From contig NZ_CAJYEB010000001.1 of NCBI RefSeq assembly GCF_913773735.1, forward strand, positions 1 through 64,000: DNA of 64,000 nucleotides. Reading direction: 5' to 3'. Shown here piece by piece: positions 127-11,772 of the stretch. A program made the translations under genes and the position numbers. Below the pieces are notes generated by a model. That model saw only the letters and a list, made by a program, of their open reading frames with translations, was not told the origin of the DNA and did not search any database. The stretch comes from an uncultured Massilia sp. GTDB taxonomy: Bacteria; Pseudomonadota; Gammaproteobacteria; Burkholderiales; Burkholderiaceae_D. Position 1 is the first letter of the stretch, and each line of letters begins with the position of its first letter.

Positions 127-2359
127 CTTACGCGAACAGACGGAAGTCATTTTTCGGGACTACGGTACTTATTCTCAATGGGACTGGCGCGTGACGGGCG
201 ACGATCCTTTCATGACCGATGCCTGTCAGTTTGACGAAACCGACTTCAATTACCTGAGCCGCCGCTGGGAGGCGGCAGGCTGGTATTACTGGTACGAACA
301 CGACGCCACTGGGCACAAGCTCATCGTCAGCAGTGATTCCACGCGGGCTCCGGCGCTCGATGGTGGCGCGGAAGTGCGTTTTCATGGCGAAGGTGGCGCT
401 CTGGAAGAGGATGCAATTGATCGCTGGTCGCCAGTGCGACAGACGATGCCCTCCAGCTTTGCTTTGAACGGTTTCAACTTCAAGGATCCACGACCGTCCA
501 GTATCACCATTCCCACCTTGAACCAGCAGGGCAAGGTCCCAGAGATCGAATCCTATGAATACGCCGGCGCTTACGGTTTCAAAAACTTCCAGGATGGCGA
601 TGCTCAGTGTCGAATCAGGATGGAAGAAATCGAAGCCATTGCCAAGCACATCGAGGCGGAAGGTAATAACCGTTTCCTGATGCCGGGCCGCTGGTTTCAA
701 CTGGTCGAGCACTTCAATCACGGTGTTTATGGCCGAAGCAGCGATGCTCGTAAGGACGACTTCGTAATCTTATCGGTCCGCCACATCGCCACCAACAACT
801 ATTTGCAGGAAGAAGATGAGAAAACGCTCTATCGCAATTGGTTGACGTGCACCCGCAAGAATATTCCTTGGAGACCAGGCCGAAACTTCAACAGCACGGA
901 TACCAAAATCCTCGCACCTCAAACTGCCGTTGTCGTCGGCCCCTCTGGTTCGGATAGCATCCATACCGATGAATACGGTCGGATACGGGTGCAATTCCAT
1001 TGGGACCGGGAAGGCGACAACGACGACCGCAGCTCTGCCTGGATACGGGTATCTAGTTCCTGGGCTGGAGCCGAGCTTGGCGCCGCTGCGATTCCAAGAG
1101 TGGGAACTGAAGTCATCGTCCAATGGCTGGGCGGATGCCCCGACCGTCCGATTATCACAGGAGCGGTATTCAATGAGCACAACATGCCGCCGTGGACTGT
1201 GCCAACACAACAGGCGTTGACTGGCTTTCGAAGCCGCGAGTTAACGCCAAATGGCGGCAATGCTCCCGCTGGGCGGAGCAATCACTTGGTCCTCGACGAC
1301 ACTAATGGACAGATCCAGGCGCAGCTCAAGAGCGATCATTTGTACAGCCAGCTCTCGCTCGGGTATATCACACGAATCGAAGATAACCGTGGCCGAAAGG
1401 ATGCACGAGGAGAAGGCTGGGAACTGCGAACCGACGGGCATGGGGTACTGCGCTCGGCAGACGGAATGCTCGTTACTACCGAGCGGCGCGATCGTGGCCA
1501 ATCTCACATTACCGATATGGGGGAGACCCTCCAGCGCTTAGCAGATGCTCACCATCTGCATGAAAGACAAGCTAAGGAGGCTATCGGGCAGGAAGCCCAA
1601 GAATGGGGACATCAGGATGAAGTAGCCGATATTTTGCATAGCCAGAATAAAGCCGTAGCTGGGACCGTAGGACAATTTCCAGAACTGTCTACTCCTCATC
1701 TTGTTCTCGCAAGTGCGGCCGGACTTGTTACCTCAACGGTACAGTCCACTCACCTATCGAGCGAGGAGCAAATCGCTCTCATTGCCAAGAGAGATGTATC
1801 AATTGCCGCTGGCGACAGCCTCTTTGCAAGTGTGACGCAAACCTTGAGATTATTCGTGAGAAACGCAGGGATGAAGTTTCTTGCAGCAGCAGGAAAAATT
1901 TCTGTCGTAGCAAAGCAGGATGATATTGAGCTCATCGCAGCAAAAGTCCTTACACTCATCAGCCAAACGGAGTGGATTGATTTGAAAGGAAAAAAAGGCA
2001 TCCGCCTGCATGGGGCAGGTTCTATGGTGGAAATCAGTGATAAAGTTCAGTTCTTCACTGCATCGCCAACATTATTCCATGGCAACCTTGAAACCTTGGG
2101 GGCATCCCCGCGTCCACATACCCGTGCTGCAACTCATACTACTTCCTCTCCATCACCTTTACCTCACGACAACCAGACATTTGACGAGCAATTTCAACTG
2201 ATTGGATCTGATGGGCACACTCCAATCGTCAATCGTCGATACCGCATTACCGCTGACAACGGACAAACGTGGGAAGGAAGAAGTGACGACCGTGGCTTGA
2301 CGCAGCGTGTTGTTACACGTTCTTCCGCAAAGCTTTCCCTTCTACTGCTTCCAGACTAA
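127..2359 (+). pseudogene. vgrG: Type VI secretion tip protein VgrG, 5' end removed by IS3
   Basis: VgrG trimers form the puncturing tip of the T6SS needle and carry effectors. The visible part starts inside the gp27-like region (CQFDETDFNYLSRRWEAAGW, YYWYEH) and continues through the gp5/OB-fold Vgr core (DEYGRIRVQFHWDREG, WAGAELGAAAIPRVGTEV, DRPIITGAVFNEHN). A DUF2345-type beta-helix with many alternating A/V/I segments follows, and then a C-terminal transthyretin-like extension (NRRYRITADNGQTW, SDDRGLT) of the type that docks cargo. Roughly the first 130-150 residues of a normal VgrG are missing, replaced by IS sequence. The ORF-track start at 20 lies inside the IS, so a chimeric product is possible but probably not functional. 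The effector gene starts 19 bases downstream. Confidence 0.88.
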
Positions 2360-2378: not shown

Positions 2379-3305
2379 ATGTCCGAAGTAATTGTCGGTC
2401 AAGCTAATACAAATCTTACCCCTGGCTCAGTCGCTGCGGTAAAAATTGATGACTACATTTGCACTCTCGGTTTAGAGGAAAATGAATTTGGGGACACTCT
2501 TCCAATAATCCCTACTACTGCCCGGACGGAGCGGAATAAGATTCTTTACCACCTCCGCATTAAGGCCACGCTAACCCGTCAAACTGACGGGAGCCCGGTA
2601 CCAAGCTATAAGTTTTCCATTAGATCTAACCGGGCGAGCGATCGAATAGAGTCAAAAGGACAGACAAACGCGCAGGGAGAAGTGACATTCACCTTAGTTA
2701 CGCGAGAACCTGGCGAATTAGAGCTAACAACCCCAACTGTCGGGATTTCACTACTCCCCTTCTCAATCAAACTCCAGCAAGCGTGGTATGAGTCACCCTT
2801 CCTCATCACTGGCTATAACGTTTGCGATGAAAGCGATTTTTCCGGACAGCTAGTTGAGGGAAAAGGTCTCGATGAGAAGCACAAAGATGATTTCCTGTAT
2901 GGTGCCGCAGGGGTGGCCATGCAGGGAACAGGCAAGACCACTCAAGGAAGATACGTTCGACTAAATAACAAGCCCGGGGGTTGGCAAACGAACAAGAAAG
3001 GAAGTCCTGAACGCTTGGCAAATCCGTCTGCAGCAGAATTTGCTTACGCAAGTGGGGTTCATGGGAAGTACGATGATCTCAAAGAAAATTATTCGATTGC
3101 CGTTGACAAGGCCGTGATTCCCAAAAAAGCAAAGGTCGAGATAGACGGACTCGGAGAACGTGTGGCAGATGACTCCGGTGGCGCGATCGACCTATACCAC
3201 ATAGACAATTTTCTTGGCTCAGGTAAGGCAGTAGTGAAAACCTGGCTAAAAGGTGGAATAAACGGGACAAAACGACGGGTAAAATACCTTGGGAACAGCA
3301 AATGA
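2379..3305 (+). CDS. Candidate T6SS effector with Ig-like and 3D (lytic transglycosylase-like) domains
   Basis: A 308-residue protein directly behind vgrG. I start it at MSEVIVGQ (TTTAGAGG upstream) rather than the earlier in-frame ATG at 2307, which overlaps vgrG. Residues about 50-130 look like a bacterial Ig-like/invasin repeat (DGSPVPSYKF, TNAQGEVTFTLVT, PGELELTTPTVG). Residues about 140-300 resemble the 3D/double-psi barrel domain of MltA and RpfB: TGYN near its start, a VIPKKAKVEIDG strand, then VADDSGGAIDLYHID with the paired aspartates of that family. This suggests cleavage of peptidoglycan in the target periplasm. Position behind vgrG and an ATGA overlap with an exported protein support an effector-immunity pair. 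The domain calls are mine by eye; the effector role is inference. Confidence 0.66.
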   Translation: MSEVIVGQANTNLTPGSVAAVKIDDYICTLGLEENEFGDTLPIIPTTARTERNKILYHLRIKATLTRQTDGSPVPSYKFSIRSNRASDRIESKGQTNAQGEVTFTLVTREPGELELTTPTVGISLLPFSIKLQQAWYESPFLITGYNVCDESDFSGQLVEGKGLDEKHKDDFLYGAAGVAMQGTGKTTQGRYVRLNNKPGGWQTNKKGSPERLANPSAAEFAYASGVHGKYDDLKENYSIAVDKAVIPKKAKVEIDGLGERVADDSGGAIDLYHIDNFLGSGKAVVKTWLKGGINGTKRRVKYLGNSK

Positions 3306-3787
3306 AAACAACATCTCGATCTTTATGCACTCTAATATTAGTATTGCTGGCCAACTACGCTGAAGCAGAAGAGTTAAAAAAGATTTATTTGGACCAGAAG
3401 AATAATGTTCACATACTGACACAAAAAGGCGAGCATCGACAGCTCACTCATAAGGGCAATGCAAGTACGCCGAAGCTTGCGCCAGACAATGAAACCGTTG
3501 CTTGGCTCAAATTAAACATATGGAGAGCGGAAGGTGATGACAAACCTGGATCCGAAGAGCTCGTCATTTACCGCAATGGAAAATCAGCATCAATAAAGTG
3601 CACACCTTTTATCCGTGATTACTGGTTCTGGCAAAATGGCCGCCAAATCGCAATTGACTGTGGAGGAAGACACTTCGCGGGCCGCGAAATTCTTTACGAC
3701 GCCAGAACCTTGAAAGAACTCGCGAACTTCGACCAAGCCGAAGTCCCATTAGAAAAGCGCCCGGATTGGTCGAACAGTGACGACTAA
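3302..3787 (+). CDS. Exported protein, candidate immunity protein for the 3D-domain effector
   Basis: 161 residues with a signal peptide (MKTTSRSLCTLILVLLANYA, cleavage probably after AEA). The mature part has a TolB/WD40-like beta-propeller flavour (RQLTHKGNASTPKLAPDNET, VAWLKLN) and two cysteines (SIKCTPF, AIDCGG) that could form a disulfide. Its ATG overlaps the effector stop codon (ATGA), so the two are translationally coupled. Immunity proteins against peptidoglycan-degrading T6SS effectors are periplasmic and encoded directly downstream, which fits. I do not recognise a named immunity family, so the role rests on gene order and export signal. Confidence 0.6.
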   Translation: MKTTSRSLCTLILVLLANYAEAEELKKIYLDQKNNVHILTQKGEHRQLTHKGNASTPKLAPDNETVAWLKLNIWRAEGDDKPGSEELVIYRNGKSASIKCTPFIRDYWFWQNGRQIAIDCGGRHFAGREILYDARTLKELANFDQAEVPLEKRPDWSNSDD

Positions 3788-3856: not shown

Positions 3857-4111
3857 ATGATCCATGAAGGGCGTCGTGTTATTCGCTTGAACGACAAAAC
3901 CGATCACGGCGGGCAGGTTGTCTTTGTTTCATCGGGGACCGTTGTCCTAGGCATCGAAGCAGCGCTTGCGGACGATATGACCTATTGTCCAAAATGCAAA
4001 GGAAACTTTCCCATCAAACCAGACGGTGCCGGAGCCAAGCATATCGGACGCCCCTATGCATATGATAGTGATCAGACTGCATGTGGTGCGAAACTGATCT
4101 CTTCGCTTTGA
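3857..4111 (+). CDS. PAAR-domain T6SS spike protein
   Basis: An 84-residue PAAR-like protein. PAAR proteins cap the VgrG trimer and sharpen the tip. The order of motifs is typical: an N-terminal RVIRLNDKTDHGGQV, a central cysteine pair (YCPKCKG), and a terminal TACGAKLISSL. The second PAAR in this window, at 6283, has the same layout. I choose the ATG at 3857 because GAGGAACG sits just before it; the longer ORF at 3824 adds 11 residues without a binding site. The gene closes the vgrG-effector-immunity-PAAR module and is the last gene before the tRNA-Lys scar. Confidence 0.85.
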   Translation: MIHEGRRVIRLNDKTDHGGQVVFVSSGTVVLGIEAALADDMTYCPKCKGNFPIKPDGAGAKHIGRPYAYDSDQTACGAKLISSL

Positions 4112-4322
4112 TTGTTGCTAGCCTACCTATCGGCGGCATTCCTTGATATAGATCACCGTCATTACGCTGGGCATATGAGACGTGGTCGAGCACAACCTAT
4201 GTGATGCATTGGTGACGTGAAATCGGTCAACTACCGGCCGCTACCCTTGGGTAAGATTGAATGATCAGTTTGGCAAGCGCTGCAAGTCATTGATTAATAA
4301 ATTTTCCCTAACCCGACCCAGC
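4112..4322. other. AT-rich island edge, no gene seen
   Basis: About 210 bases between the first PAAR gene and the tRNA-Lys fragment. Composition is markedly more AT-rich than anything to the right (for example CATTGATTAATAAATTTTCC just before the fragment). No integrase gene, no convincing ORF and no clear terminator were found. It is best read as the right margin of an integrated island. Confidence 0.5.
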
Positions 4323-4369
4323 GACTTTTAATCCGTTGGTCGCTGGTTCGAGCCCAGCACGGCCTACCA
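4323..4369 (+). pseudogene. 3' fragment of tRNA-Lys(UUU), probable island attachment site
   Basis: The sequence from GACTTTTAATCCG to the CCA end is identical to the anticodon-arm-to-3' part of the two intact tRNA-Lys genes at 10439 and 11697. Its 5' half (acceptor 5' strand and D arm) is missing. Identity with the first intact gene continues 11 bases past CCA, giving 58 identical bases (4323-4380), and then into a closely similar terminator hairpin. Tyrosine-recombinase islands typically leave this kind of 3' tRNA piece at their far end. The base-composition change at the same point supports this. The intact partner gene would lie left of the window. Confidence 0.72.
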
Positions 4370-4379
4370 AGATTCAGCG

Positions 4380-4412
4380 AAAACGCCAGCCTTCGGGCTG
4401 GCGTTTTTGTTT
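4380..4412 (+). terminator. Rho-independent terminator of the tRNA-Lys fragment
   Basis: A perfect 12-bp stem AAAACGCCAGCC / GGCTGGCGTTTT with a TTCG loop, followed by a T-rich run (TTGTTTTG). It corresponds to the terminator of the intact tRNA-Lys gene at 10523, differing in the loop and outer stem. Confidence 0.8.
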
Positions 4413-4534
4413 TGGGCGTCGGCCGACGCTCTCCATTCTCTCCCTCCCCGTGCTGCCATTGCCGTGATCGGCCGGCTGCGACGAGCTTGCCAGCAAGTTG
4501 CGTCAGCTCAAGTTTCACCTGTACACGTCCTTGA

Positions 4535-4651
4535 ATAATTACAAGGTTCTCAACGACAGGGAGCGTTGCGCGCTCGTTCCACAGCGCGATCTACGGCGGG
4601 CGCAACAATCACAGCCACGTCATGGCCTACGATGTGGCGATGGAGAAAACG
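4535..4651 (+). pseudogene. C-terminal remnant of a Tle3-like T6SS lipase (tentative)
   Basis: In the reading frame that later becomes the Tla3-like gene, the 39 codons upstream are open and read TTGSVARSFHSAIYGGRNNH and then AYDVAM. This resembles the extreme C-terminus of DUF3274/Tle3-type lipases as I remember them (a histidine-rich HSAI segment followed by AYD). A Tle3 gene normally sits just before Tla3. No lipase body with a GxSxG motif is present upstream, since a stop and the tRNA scar intervene. It therefore looks like the tail of a deleted effector gene, fused in frame to the adapter ORF. The family call rests on memory only. Confidence 0.4.
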
Positions 4652-6286
4652 ATGAGCAAACCATGGTGGATCCTCGCGATCACGCTGGGAATTGGGCTGG
4701 TGCTTGGCGGGCGCTGGGTGCTGGCGGCGCGCGAAGCCGATGCGCGCCAGGCGCAAGCCAGGGCCGCGGCATCGAAGGCGAGCGAGCAGCTGGCAGCGGC
4801 ACGTACCGAACAGGGACGACGGGAGTATGTCCTGGAAGTGATCAACCTGGGCGTCACGCTGGACAAATACCGGCAGGGCAAGCTATGGGACGCCCTGCAA
4901 TCCGGCAATCCTTACACGTCGCTGCGCGAGCAGGATCCGAAAAAATACCCTTGGACGAACACGGACAAGCTCGGCATGAGCGGCGGCCGCAGTGGCGCCA
5001 CGCTGGAAAATGGCGCCGCCTATACCGTCCTGGAATGGGGAACGCCGGTCTTCAACGCGAGGCCTCCCGACATGAGCAAATACGCCAACCATCCGCTCAA
5101 ACCGAATATGGGATTTGCTGCGGGGACAGAATCCTCCGGCATGATAGCGAGCCTTTTCGTGGCCGGCCCGGCACGCTTCGCCGAGCGCCCGGACCGCATC
5201 CTCGACGACGTCTTCGACTTCTTCGATGCCAATCCGGACATTCCCTATGTCGTCTTGAACTCGAATGACGGCATGAGCGTGCGAGAGTCCTCTCTCCCTT
5301 CCGGATCGCCACCGCTCGTCAAGGACGGCTACTACGTCCCCGACATGCCCGACGCCTCGGCACTGTTCGTCCTGGCCCGCCGCGAGCGGGTCGATCCGAT
5401 CCGGCCATTCGCCTACGATGATATCGACGACTACCGCACGCCCATGGATGTGCTGAACCGCGACGGCATCGCACGACGCCTTTTCCTGGGCTACCTCGAC
5501 CTGGAACGCTCCGTGCCCCAGCCGGATGAACCCGGTCTGCCGGACCGGCGCAAGGTCACCGTCGCCGAATGGCTGGACTTCGCCGCCAAGTTCAGCGTAC
5601 GCCCGGACATCCGCGGCACCGGCGAAATCAGTTTTCTCGACCGTGAATTCAAGGCCAAGCACCGCCCTCCACGAGACTGGAAGCCCACGCCCTGGTTCCC
5701 CGTCCCATGGAGCAAGAAGCAACTCGGCGAATTCGACCGAATGACCACGCGCGGCTTCGTCCACCGGCCCGTCTTCGTGAAGACCACCGACGAACACGGC
5801 AAGCCATTGTCCCGCCGCGAGGCGCGCCAACAGGCGCTGATGGAAGGGTTGCAGGAAGCGCTGCGCACGCTGCCGGAAGCCGAGCGGGCCAAGGCGCCGG
5901 CACGCGTCATCGTCGCCACCAACAACCAGACCGCGCAGCTGGTTGCGCTCGAAGGCATGCTGCACCAGTATGCCGCGCAGGGTGGCCCCGAGATCGACAG
6001 CGGCAGGCTCGACCAGTTCATCAACATCGACCGGCGCCTCGGCAATACCGGGGCGGCCACGTTGTTCATGGAAATGGCGATCGGCGTGATCGGCAGCTAT
6101 CGCGCCGGCGGACCCAGCCTGGCGATCAACCTGCGCGATCCGCACGAGGCGACCTTCATGTTCATCAGCCCGCCGTCCGACGAACGACGCGAGGCCCAGA
6201 AAAGCCGGGGTGACGTGTTCCGCAGCGTCCGGTCGCCGGCGAGCGACCTGGACAACTATGCCGTACCGACGGCGACACAACCATGA
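4652..6286 (+). CDS. DUF2875 protein, Tla3-like T6SS lipase adapter
   Basis: 544 residues. Type VI lipase adapter proteins of the Tla3/DUF2875 family help load Tle3-type lipases onto VgrG. One N-terminal transmembrane helix (ILAITLGIGLVLGGRWVLA) is followed by a short helical, Ala-rich segment and a large periplasm-facing domain. Characteristic stretches are YTVLEWGTPVFNARPP, PDIPYVVLNSNDG, ATLFMEMAIGVIGSYR and EATFMFISPPSD. I prefer the ATG at 4652, which has GGAGAA seven bases ahead, over the ORF-track start at 4622, which lies in the presumed lipase tail. The stop overlaps the downstream PAAR gene by ATGA. The cognate lipase appears to be missing, so the adapter may be an orphan. Confidence 0.72.
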   Translation: MSKPWWILAITLGIGLVLGGRWVLAAREADARQAQARAAASKASEQLAAARTEQGRREYVLEVINLGVTLDKYRQGKLWDALQSGNPYTSLREQDPKKYPWTNTDKLGMSGGRSGATLENGAAYTVLEWGTPVFNARPPDMSKYANHPLKPNMGFAAGTESSGMIASLFVAGPARFAERPDRILDDVFDFFDANPDIPYVVLNSNDGMSVRESSLPSGSPPLVKDGYYVPDMPDASALFVLARRERVDPIRPFAYDDIDDYRTPMDVLNRDGIARRLFLGYLDLERSVPQPDEPGLPDRRKVTVAEWLDFAAKFSVRPDIRGTGEISFLDREFKAKHRPPRDWKPTPWFPVPWSKKQLGEFDRMTTRGFVHRPVFVKTTDEHGKPLSRREARQQALMEGLQEALRTLPEAERAKAPARVIVATNNQTAQLVALEGMLHQYAAQGGPEIDSGRLDQFINIDRRLGNTGAATLFMEMAIGVIGSYRAGGPSLAINLRDPHEATFMFISPPSDERREAQKSRGDVFRSVRSPASDLDNYAVPTATQP

Positions 6287-6552
6287 AAAACGTCATCCGG
6301 CTCGGCGATGCCACCTCCCACGGCGGCAAGGTGATCGGCGCCGACGCCACCCATTTCAAGGTCCACGGGATTCCGGTGGCGTGCGTGGGCGATGCGTGCA
6401 GTTGCCCTATGCCGGGTCATGCCGGCTGCACGATCGCGACGGGCTCCGCCCACCACCTGATCGGCGGGAAAAGCATCGCTTTCGACGGCGACAGTCTCAG
6501 TTGCGGAGCAAAGCTGATCTCCAGCTTTCCGCACTTCAGTGCGAACAGATGA
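6283..6552 (+). CDS. PAAR-domain T6SS spike protein
   Basis: An 89-residue PAAR protein with the usual motif order: VIRLGDATSHGGKVIGAD, VACVGDACSCP, HAGCTIATGSAHHLIGGKSI and LSCGAKLIS. It would cap a VgrG trimer. The ATG overlaps the Tla3-like stop codon (ATGA), so the two are translated together. The gene ends 15 bases before the stop of the convergent hybrid kinase. It is more GC-rich than the PAAR at 3857 and therefore comes from a different background. Confidence 0.88.
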   Translation: MKNVIRLGDATSHGGKVIGADATHFKVHGIPVACVGDACSCPMPGHAGCTIATGSAHHLIGGKSIAFDGDSLSCGAKLISSFPHFSANR

Positions 6553-6567
6553 CACGGAAACGATGGC

Positions 6568-9711
<3,144 letters not shown>

Positions 9712-10438: not shown

Positions 10439-10514
10439 GGGTCGTTAGCTCAGTTGGTAGAGCAGCGGACTTTTAATCCGTTGGTCGCTGGTTCGAGCCC
10501 AGCACGGCCTACCA
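10439..10514 (+). tRNA. tRNA-Lys(UUU)
   Basis: A 76-base tRNA with a 7-bp acceptor stem (GGGTCGT / ACGGCCT, with wobbles), an AGCTC D arm, anticodon loop CTTTTAA (TTT, lysine), a GGTTCGAGCC T arm and an encoded CCA end. It is identical in sequence to the gene at 11697. Its 3' part and downstream flank are duplicated at 4323. Confidence 0.97.
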
Positions 10515-11696: not shown

Positions 11697-11772
11697 GGGT
11701 CGTTAGCTCAGTTGGTAGAGCAGCGGACTTTTAATCCGTTGGTCGCTGGTTCGAGCCCAGCACGGCCTACCA
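11697..11772 (+). tRNA. tRNA-Lys(UUU)
   Basis: A 76-base tRNA with anticodon TTT, identical to the copy at 10439, with an encoded CCA. The flank after CCA differs from that of the first copy, so the two genes have independent terminators. Confidence 0.97.

Follow-up and report, generated by a model that had tools for sequence, protein, structure and literature searches.

A tRNA-Lys fragment in an uncultured Massilia as the probable right end of a small tRNA-Lys-targeted island carrying one T6SS module

How did the 3' part of a tRNA-Lys gene, together with its terminator, come to lie among T6SS genes near the start of a contig of an uncultured Massilia sp.? The window, which is the whole stretch of 64,000 nucleotides analysed here, is contig C1 from its first base, and the DNA that neighbours it on the left is on a separate contig, C34. 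The first-pass annotation took the fragment for the scar of an island integrated into a tRNA gene. Our analysis leads to the reading that the fragment is very probably an attR, the right attachment site of a small island that is specific for tRNA-Lys and carries one T6SS auxiliary module. The features on which the argument draws are given below in window coordinates, where element A is the island, module B is a second T6SS module to its right, and G013 is the closest relative.

1-126, strand not given: end of an IS3-type element inserted in vgrG, at the contig start; its other end is C34:1-126, with the 3-bp target duplication CTT
127-2359, plus strand: vgrG (T6SS spike) except the N-terminal part (Phage_GPD, T6SS_Vgr, DUF2345)
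2379-3305, plus strand: candidate T6SS effector with a 3D domain of peptidoglycan-cleaving type (PF06725, E 5e-8)
3302-3787, plus strand: candidate immunity protein with an N-terminal signal-like segment; 65% relative in the G013 sister element
3857-4111, plus strand: PAAR protein of element A (PF05488)
4200-4322, plus strand: right arm of element A; two sister elements, located at other tRNA-Lys genes, keep it beside attR
4323-4369, plus strand: putative attR core, the tRNA-Lys 3' part from anticodon loop to CCA (sequence match)
4370-4412, plus strand: native terminator of the gspE-linked tRNA-Lys (45/46 match to the gspE-linked tRNA-Lys of G013 and G040)
4507-4551, plus strand: leader of module B, the second vgrG module; it is present on C34 too and, in relatives, ahead of vgrG
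4569-4641, plus strand: 73-base stub of a module B gene that has been deleted, probably that of the lipase effector found before Tla3 in relatives
4655-6286, plus strand: Tla3-type lipase adaptor of module B (PF11394, PF20995)
6283-6552, plus strand: PAAR protein of module B (PF05488)
6568-9711, minus strand: chromosomal PAS-histidine kinase, directly after gspE, tRNA-Lys and terminator in G013
10439-10514, plus strand: paralogous intact tRNA-Lys (ARAGORN, terminator comparison)
11697-11772, plus strand: third tRNA-Lys, with a terminator resembling those beside integrases

As the first-pass annotation had noticed, 4323-4380 shares 58 identical bases with the tRNA-Lys gene at 10439-10514, in a block that starts at the anticodon loop, includes CCA and enters the terminator. 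An exact match of this length is far beyond what chance could plausibly give, and the likeness to the 10439 gene extends through the terminator to 4412 (95% over 94 bases, E 9e-36). Complete tRNAs were found by ARAGORN only at 10439 and 11697, and none at 4323-4412. The interval first marked as the scar, 4112-4412, was also well chosen, since the last part of 4112-4322 belongs to the element as its right arm and is kept in two further elements. We take 4323-4380 to be the attR of an integrated element. The accompanying claim of a change to very GC-rich DNA at this point stands in part. The GC content is about 0.45-0.50 left of the scar and does rise there, to 0.58-0.66 at 4.3-6.5 kb, but the very GC-rich level (about 0.70) is reached only past 6.5 kb.

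A search of the genome with the scar fragment led to a tRNA-Lys on C34 with an adjoining tyrosine integrase. Read in the direction of the tRNA, C34 carries gspE, the intact tRNA-Lys (2302-2377), an integrase remnant that points toward the tRNA-Lys (PF00589, E 4e-31), an IS5-like remnant, a leader, an ORF, the start of vgrG and the IS end. The Pfam search gave no name to the IS5-like remnant, and the labels "IS5-like" and "IS3-type" are our reading of the sequence. The first 130 codons of vgrG lie on C34 (127-518, minus strand), broken off by the other end of the IS with which the window begins. The C34 flank ends with CTT and the C1 flank starts with CTT, the 3-bp target duplication of the IS, and when the flanks were joined by script with a single CTT copy, vgrG continued in one reading frame. 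The window's first 126 bases are common to two further contig starts, and a second copy of the IS pairs likewise (C21 with C42, target duplication CGA). In G013, gspE neighbours the kinase of window 6568-9711. Because of the target duplication, the vgrG frame and this synteny with the closest relative, we strongly infer that C34 and C1 adjoin, the IS interior being absent from the contigs. An intact tRNA-Lys and an integrase to the left of the window, for which the first-pass annotation had advised looking, are both present on C34, across this join.

The gene that was entered can be recognised by its flanks. Of the 46 bases that follow the fragment's CCA, 45 agree with the gspE-linked tRNA-Lys of G013 and of G040 and 40 with the 10439 gene; on its 5' side, the C34 tRNA has the flank of the relatives' gspE-linked gene. 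Judged by these comparisons, the gspE-linked tRNA-Lys is the gene split by the insertion and the 10439 gene a paralogue, the latter having been ruled out as integration partner by the terminator comparison. The terminator on the integrase side is not peculiar to the element, as many Massilia tRNA-Lys genes carry that type. The site is empty in G013, where gspE, tRNA-Lys, terminator and kinase follow one another with about 0.2 kb from tRNA to kinase, and where the island, the tRNA fragment and module B are all missing. The observations that would count against an island, namely a left side devoid of tRNA-Lys and integrase or the same fragment in island-free relatives, did not turn up. Islands that integrate into tRNA genes have an intact tRNA and a convergent tyrosine integrase at one end and a 3' tRNA fragment at the other. 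The Massilia element has the same end layout; its cargo is a single T6SS module and its integrase a pseudogene. The intact tRNA and the 3' fragment form a direct repeat (via the inferred join), a truncated integrase adjoins, and an empty site exists. The proposed pattern of tRNA-gene integration is thus borne out by the tRNA-Lys and integrase on C34, by the empty site and by the elements of relatives.

The gene order of element A is integrase, (ORF), vgrG, 3D-domain effector, immunity and PAAR, as expected when an element enters a tRNA gene at the 3' end. The element measures about 6.4 kb without its one IS3, with roughly 8 kb as the overall figure. By domain and position, 2379-3305 and 3302-3787 are a candidate effector/immunity pair. 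As in an Aux3-type module, a T6SS delivery gene, an effector and an immunity gene lie between att sites, with the roles assigned by domain and position. A sister element of 8.0 kb, at another tRNA-Lys gene on C12 of G013, reads tRNA-Lys, integrase remnant, orf, vgrG, immunity, PAAR and tRNA-Lys fragment; against element A, its vgrG stands at 78%, its immunity gene at 65% and its PAAR at 88%, the ORF is the same and the effector region different. A third element, of 7.1 kb in G032, has a lipase-type effector. The right arms of the three elements are alike up to the tRNA core, and the flanks beyond CCA all differ. The stop of arm homology at the tRNA 3' end in all three places the end of the element at the tRNA.

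The T6SS DNA does not end at the scar, which the first-pass annotation took for the right end of a T6SS-bearing island; a decayed lipase-adaptor-PAAR module stands directly right of 4412. We read 4507-6552 as a second T6SS module that has decayed and had its own origin (GC of 4470-6567 about 0.64). Its 45-base leader, with the near-palindrome CTTGAATAATTACAAG, occurs only twice in this genome, at 4507-4551 and at about 1177-1221 of C34 (minus strand), and it also precedes vgrG in some of the T6SS modules of Massilia (L062:3378; L158-L161), inside and outside tRNA islands. It may serve the modules as a common promoter or operator, or be a site at which they are exchanged. As a genus-wide operator the leader was rejected, the palindrome being present in only 3/31 genomes with two mismatches allowed. 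T6SS genes on both sides of the scar, the leader shared by modules A and B, and the absence from G013 of all DNA between the tRNA and about 6567 would suit a larger island, in which A and B entered together, the right end is at about 6567 where module B meets the kinase, and the scar is internal. A scan, however, found no second tRNA-Lys fragment at the junction of B and the kinase. The GC of the A cargo (0.48) differs from that of B (0.64), B stands right of the native terminator, and close relatives of B have a different vgrG and no tRNA gene in the 19 kb fetched. We consider a common entry of the two modules improbable.

Tandem duplication, with the fragment as a dead tRNA-Lys copy in an array and unrelated to the module, is scarcely credible. 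Several tRNA-Lys genes do occur in this region of Massilia genomes and the 10439 gene has a similar terminator, but the fragment starts at the anticodon loop behind an arm common to sister elements, its terminator is that of the gspE-linked gene, an intact tRNA-Lys and an integrase stand at the opposite end, and G013 has no fragment there. A further account invokes turnover of the cargo. An old element would have left the att sites and the integrase remnant, and T6SS modules would later have been swapped, without integrase, between the conserved flanks (tRNA, integrase 3' end and PAAR-attR arm). This agrees with the variation of effectors among otherwise similar elements and with the state of the integrase, which in 7/7 T6SS-bearing copies has lost N-terminal sequence, on the side away from the tRNA, to a varying extent (138 to 291 residues missing), with the end next to the tRNA preserved in all seven. 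Yet decay after entry accounts equally for the truncations, and an element end that is homologous up to the tRNA core and no further, at three different chromosomal tRNA-Lys genes, fits site-specific entry. Such turnover therefore seems to us unlikely as the origin of the arrangement.

Entry of a tRNA-Lys-specific island, the reading that we prefer, would have proceeded as follows. A tyrosine integrase would have recombined the core of the element, equal to the tRNA-Lys 3' part, with the gspE-linked tRNA-Lys. The element core would have made the tRNA whole again at the left end (attL, on C34), and the original tRNA 3' end and terminator would have been displaced to the right end (4323-4412). 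After entry, the N-terminus of the integrase would have been lost beside the IS5-like remnant, and the IS3-type element would have split vgrG. Both att sites, the integrase remnant, the cargo between them, the empty site and the sister elements are read from the sequence itself; the recombination was presumably the work of the integrase of the element's family, and the module would have served to kill rival bacteria through cleavage of their peptidoglycan. Some of the module's movement could be due to homologous recombination between copies of tRNA-Lys.

Compared with the full-length copy of Massilia norwichensis LMG 28164 (G083), the integrase lacks residues 1-138, the place of which is occupied by the IS5-like remnant; six other T6SS-bearing copies have lost 142 to 291 N-terminal residues. 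None of the T6SS modules seen had an intact integrase beside it, the full-length copy of G083 lying near a contig end, before any cargo. That the M. norwichensis integrase is itself broken by one TAG was set aside, since the TAG is near the protein end and probably the normal stop. Because the integrase has lost its N-terminus and vgrG is split by the IS3-type element, the present copy of the island is probably immobile and fixed, and its own spike inactive. The effector module had been called mobile, which holds for its past (the att pair, the empty site and the same element family in different tRNA-Lys genes) but not for its present state, with the integrase truncated and vgrG split.

Within the fetched stretch (<=20 kb), 15 of 37 gspE loci have a vgrG, this genome being counted across the inferred join; the count is a description and not a test, as the loci share descent. 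Genomes have 1-14 T6SS_Vgr matches each, and at that density only a few percent of random 20 kb stretches would contain one. The vgrGs at gspE loci belong to at least two distant families. Tentatively, and with some doubt, we suggest that tRNA-Lys arrays may be genus-wide Massilia ports for single T6SS modules, which would be locked in by loss of the integrase N-terminus and set the arsenal of a strain.

Other occupants were seen at tRNA-Lys sites. The G013 C12 site has an orthologue in this genome, on C10, where metabolic genes are present and a T6SS module is absent; a block of CoA-transferase-like, lyase-like and TRAP-transporter-like genes (L027, 1264-7706) stands at the tRNA-Lys where G013 has its T6SS island. 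A tRNA-Lys-integrase site in G047 (L074, 3538-9800) has T6SS core genes beside vgrG (TssF by Pfam, the others by position and sequence), and the port may therefore hold more than auxiliary modules. In eight other Massilia (L068, L070, L071, L076, L097, L102, L104, L106), the gspE-tRNA-Lys interval has a distant vgrG on the opposite strand of the oriented locus, with about 25-30% identity to the G032 VgrG, and in G028 an ORF resembling T6SS lipases is near the distant vgrG. More tRNA-Lys 3' fragments, with other left flanks, are at L065:11754, L075:19429 (reverse-oriented coordinates), L060:4565 and L091:904, and would be the traces of one or more further families of tRNA-Lys-targeting islands in the same hotspot. 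Outside Massilia, related integrases stand at tRNA-Met, -Thr, -Asn, -Arg, -Lys and others, and no vgrG was found beside them with the query proteins.

Aux3 of Vibrio cholerae is a T6SS module that is flanked by att sites and has a tyrosine (P4-type) integrase of its own (Santoriello et al. 2020, PMC7721734). The integrase of Aux3 has been blunted by an IS5 element while the module was kept in the derived lineage, and the word "tRNA" is absent from the text of the paper (PMC7721734). Set beside Aux3 by description, the Massilia element is alike in its T6SS module between att sites, its tyrosine integrase and the IS5-linked integrase damage. It differs in its tRNA-Lys target, in its effector and in the N-terminal loss of integrase (a C-terminal tail in Aux3), and also in that no phage genes were seen within it. 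The GIVchS12 island of V. cholerae is integrase-driven and holds CRISPR-Cas and T6SS modules, including an effector-immunity pair (PMC5109276). Both are integrase-linked genomic islands with T6SS genes that include such a pair; the cargo of GIVchS12 is mixed with CRISPR-Cas, whereas the Massilia element has one vgrG module only. Judged by title or abstract, none of the five open-access papers found to mention Massilia, T6SS and VgrG jointly deals with such islands. Mobile T6SS modules with integrase and att sites are already known, and it is the genus-wide tRNA-Lys hotspot that most merits further attention.

For soil Betaproteobacteria, the locus would mean that a T6SS toxin module has travelled as a very small tRNA-targeted island, with both ends, the empty site and sister copies at hand. 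It would also provide a second lineage for the pattern known from Aux3, in which the integrase decays and the weapon module stays. The hotspot may offer a simple route to new T6SS effectors, through the DNA between gspE and the next tRNA-Lys in Massilia.
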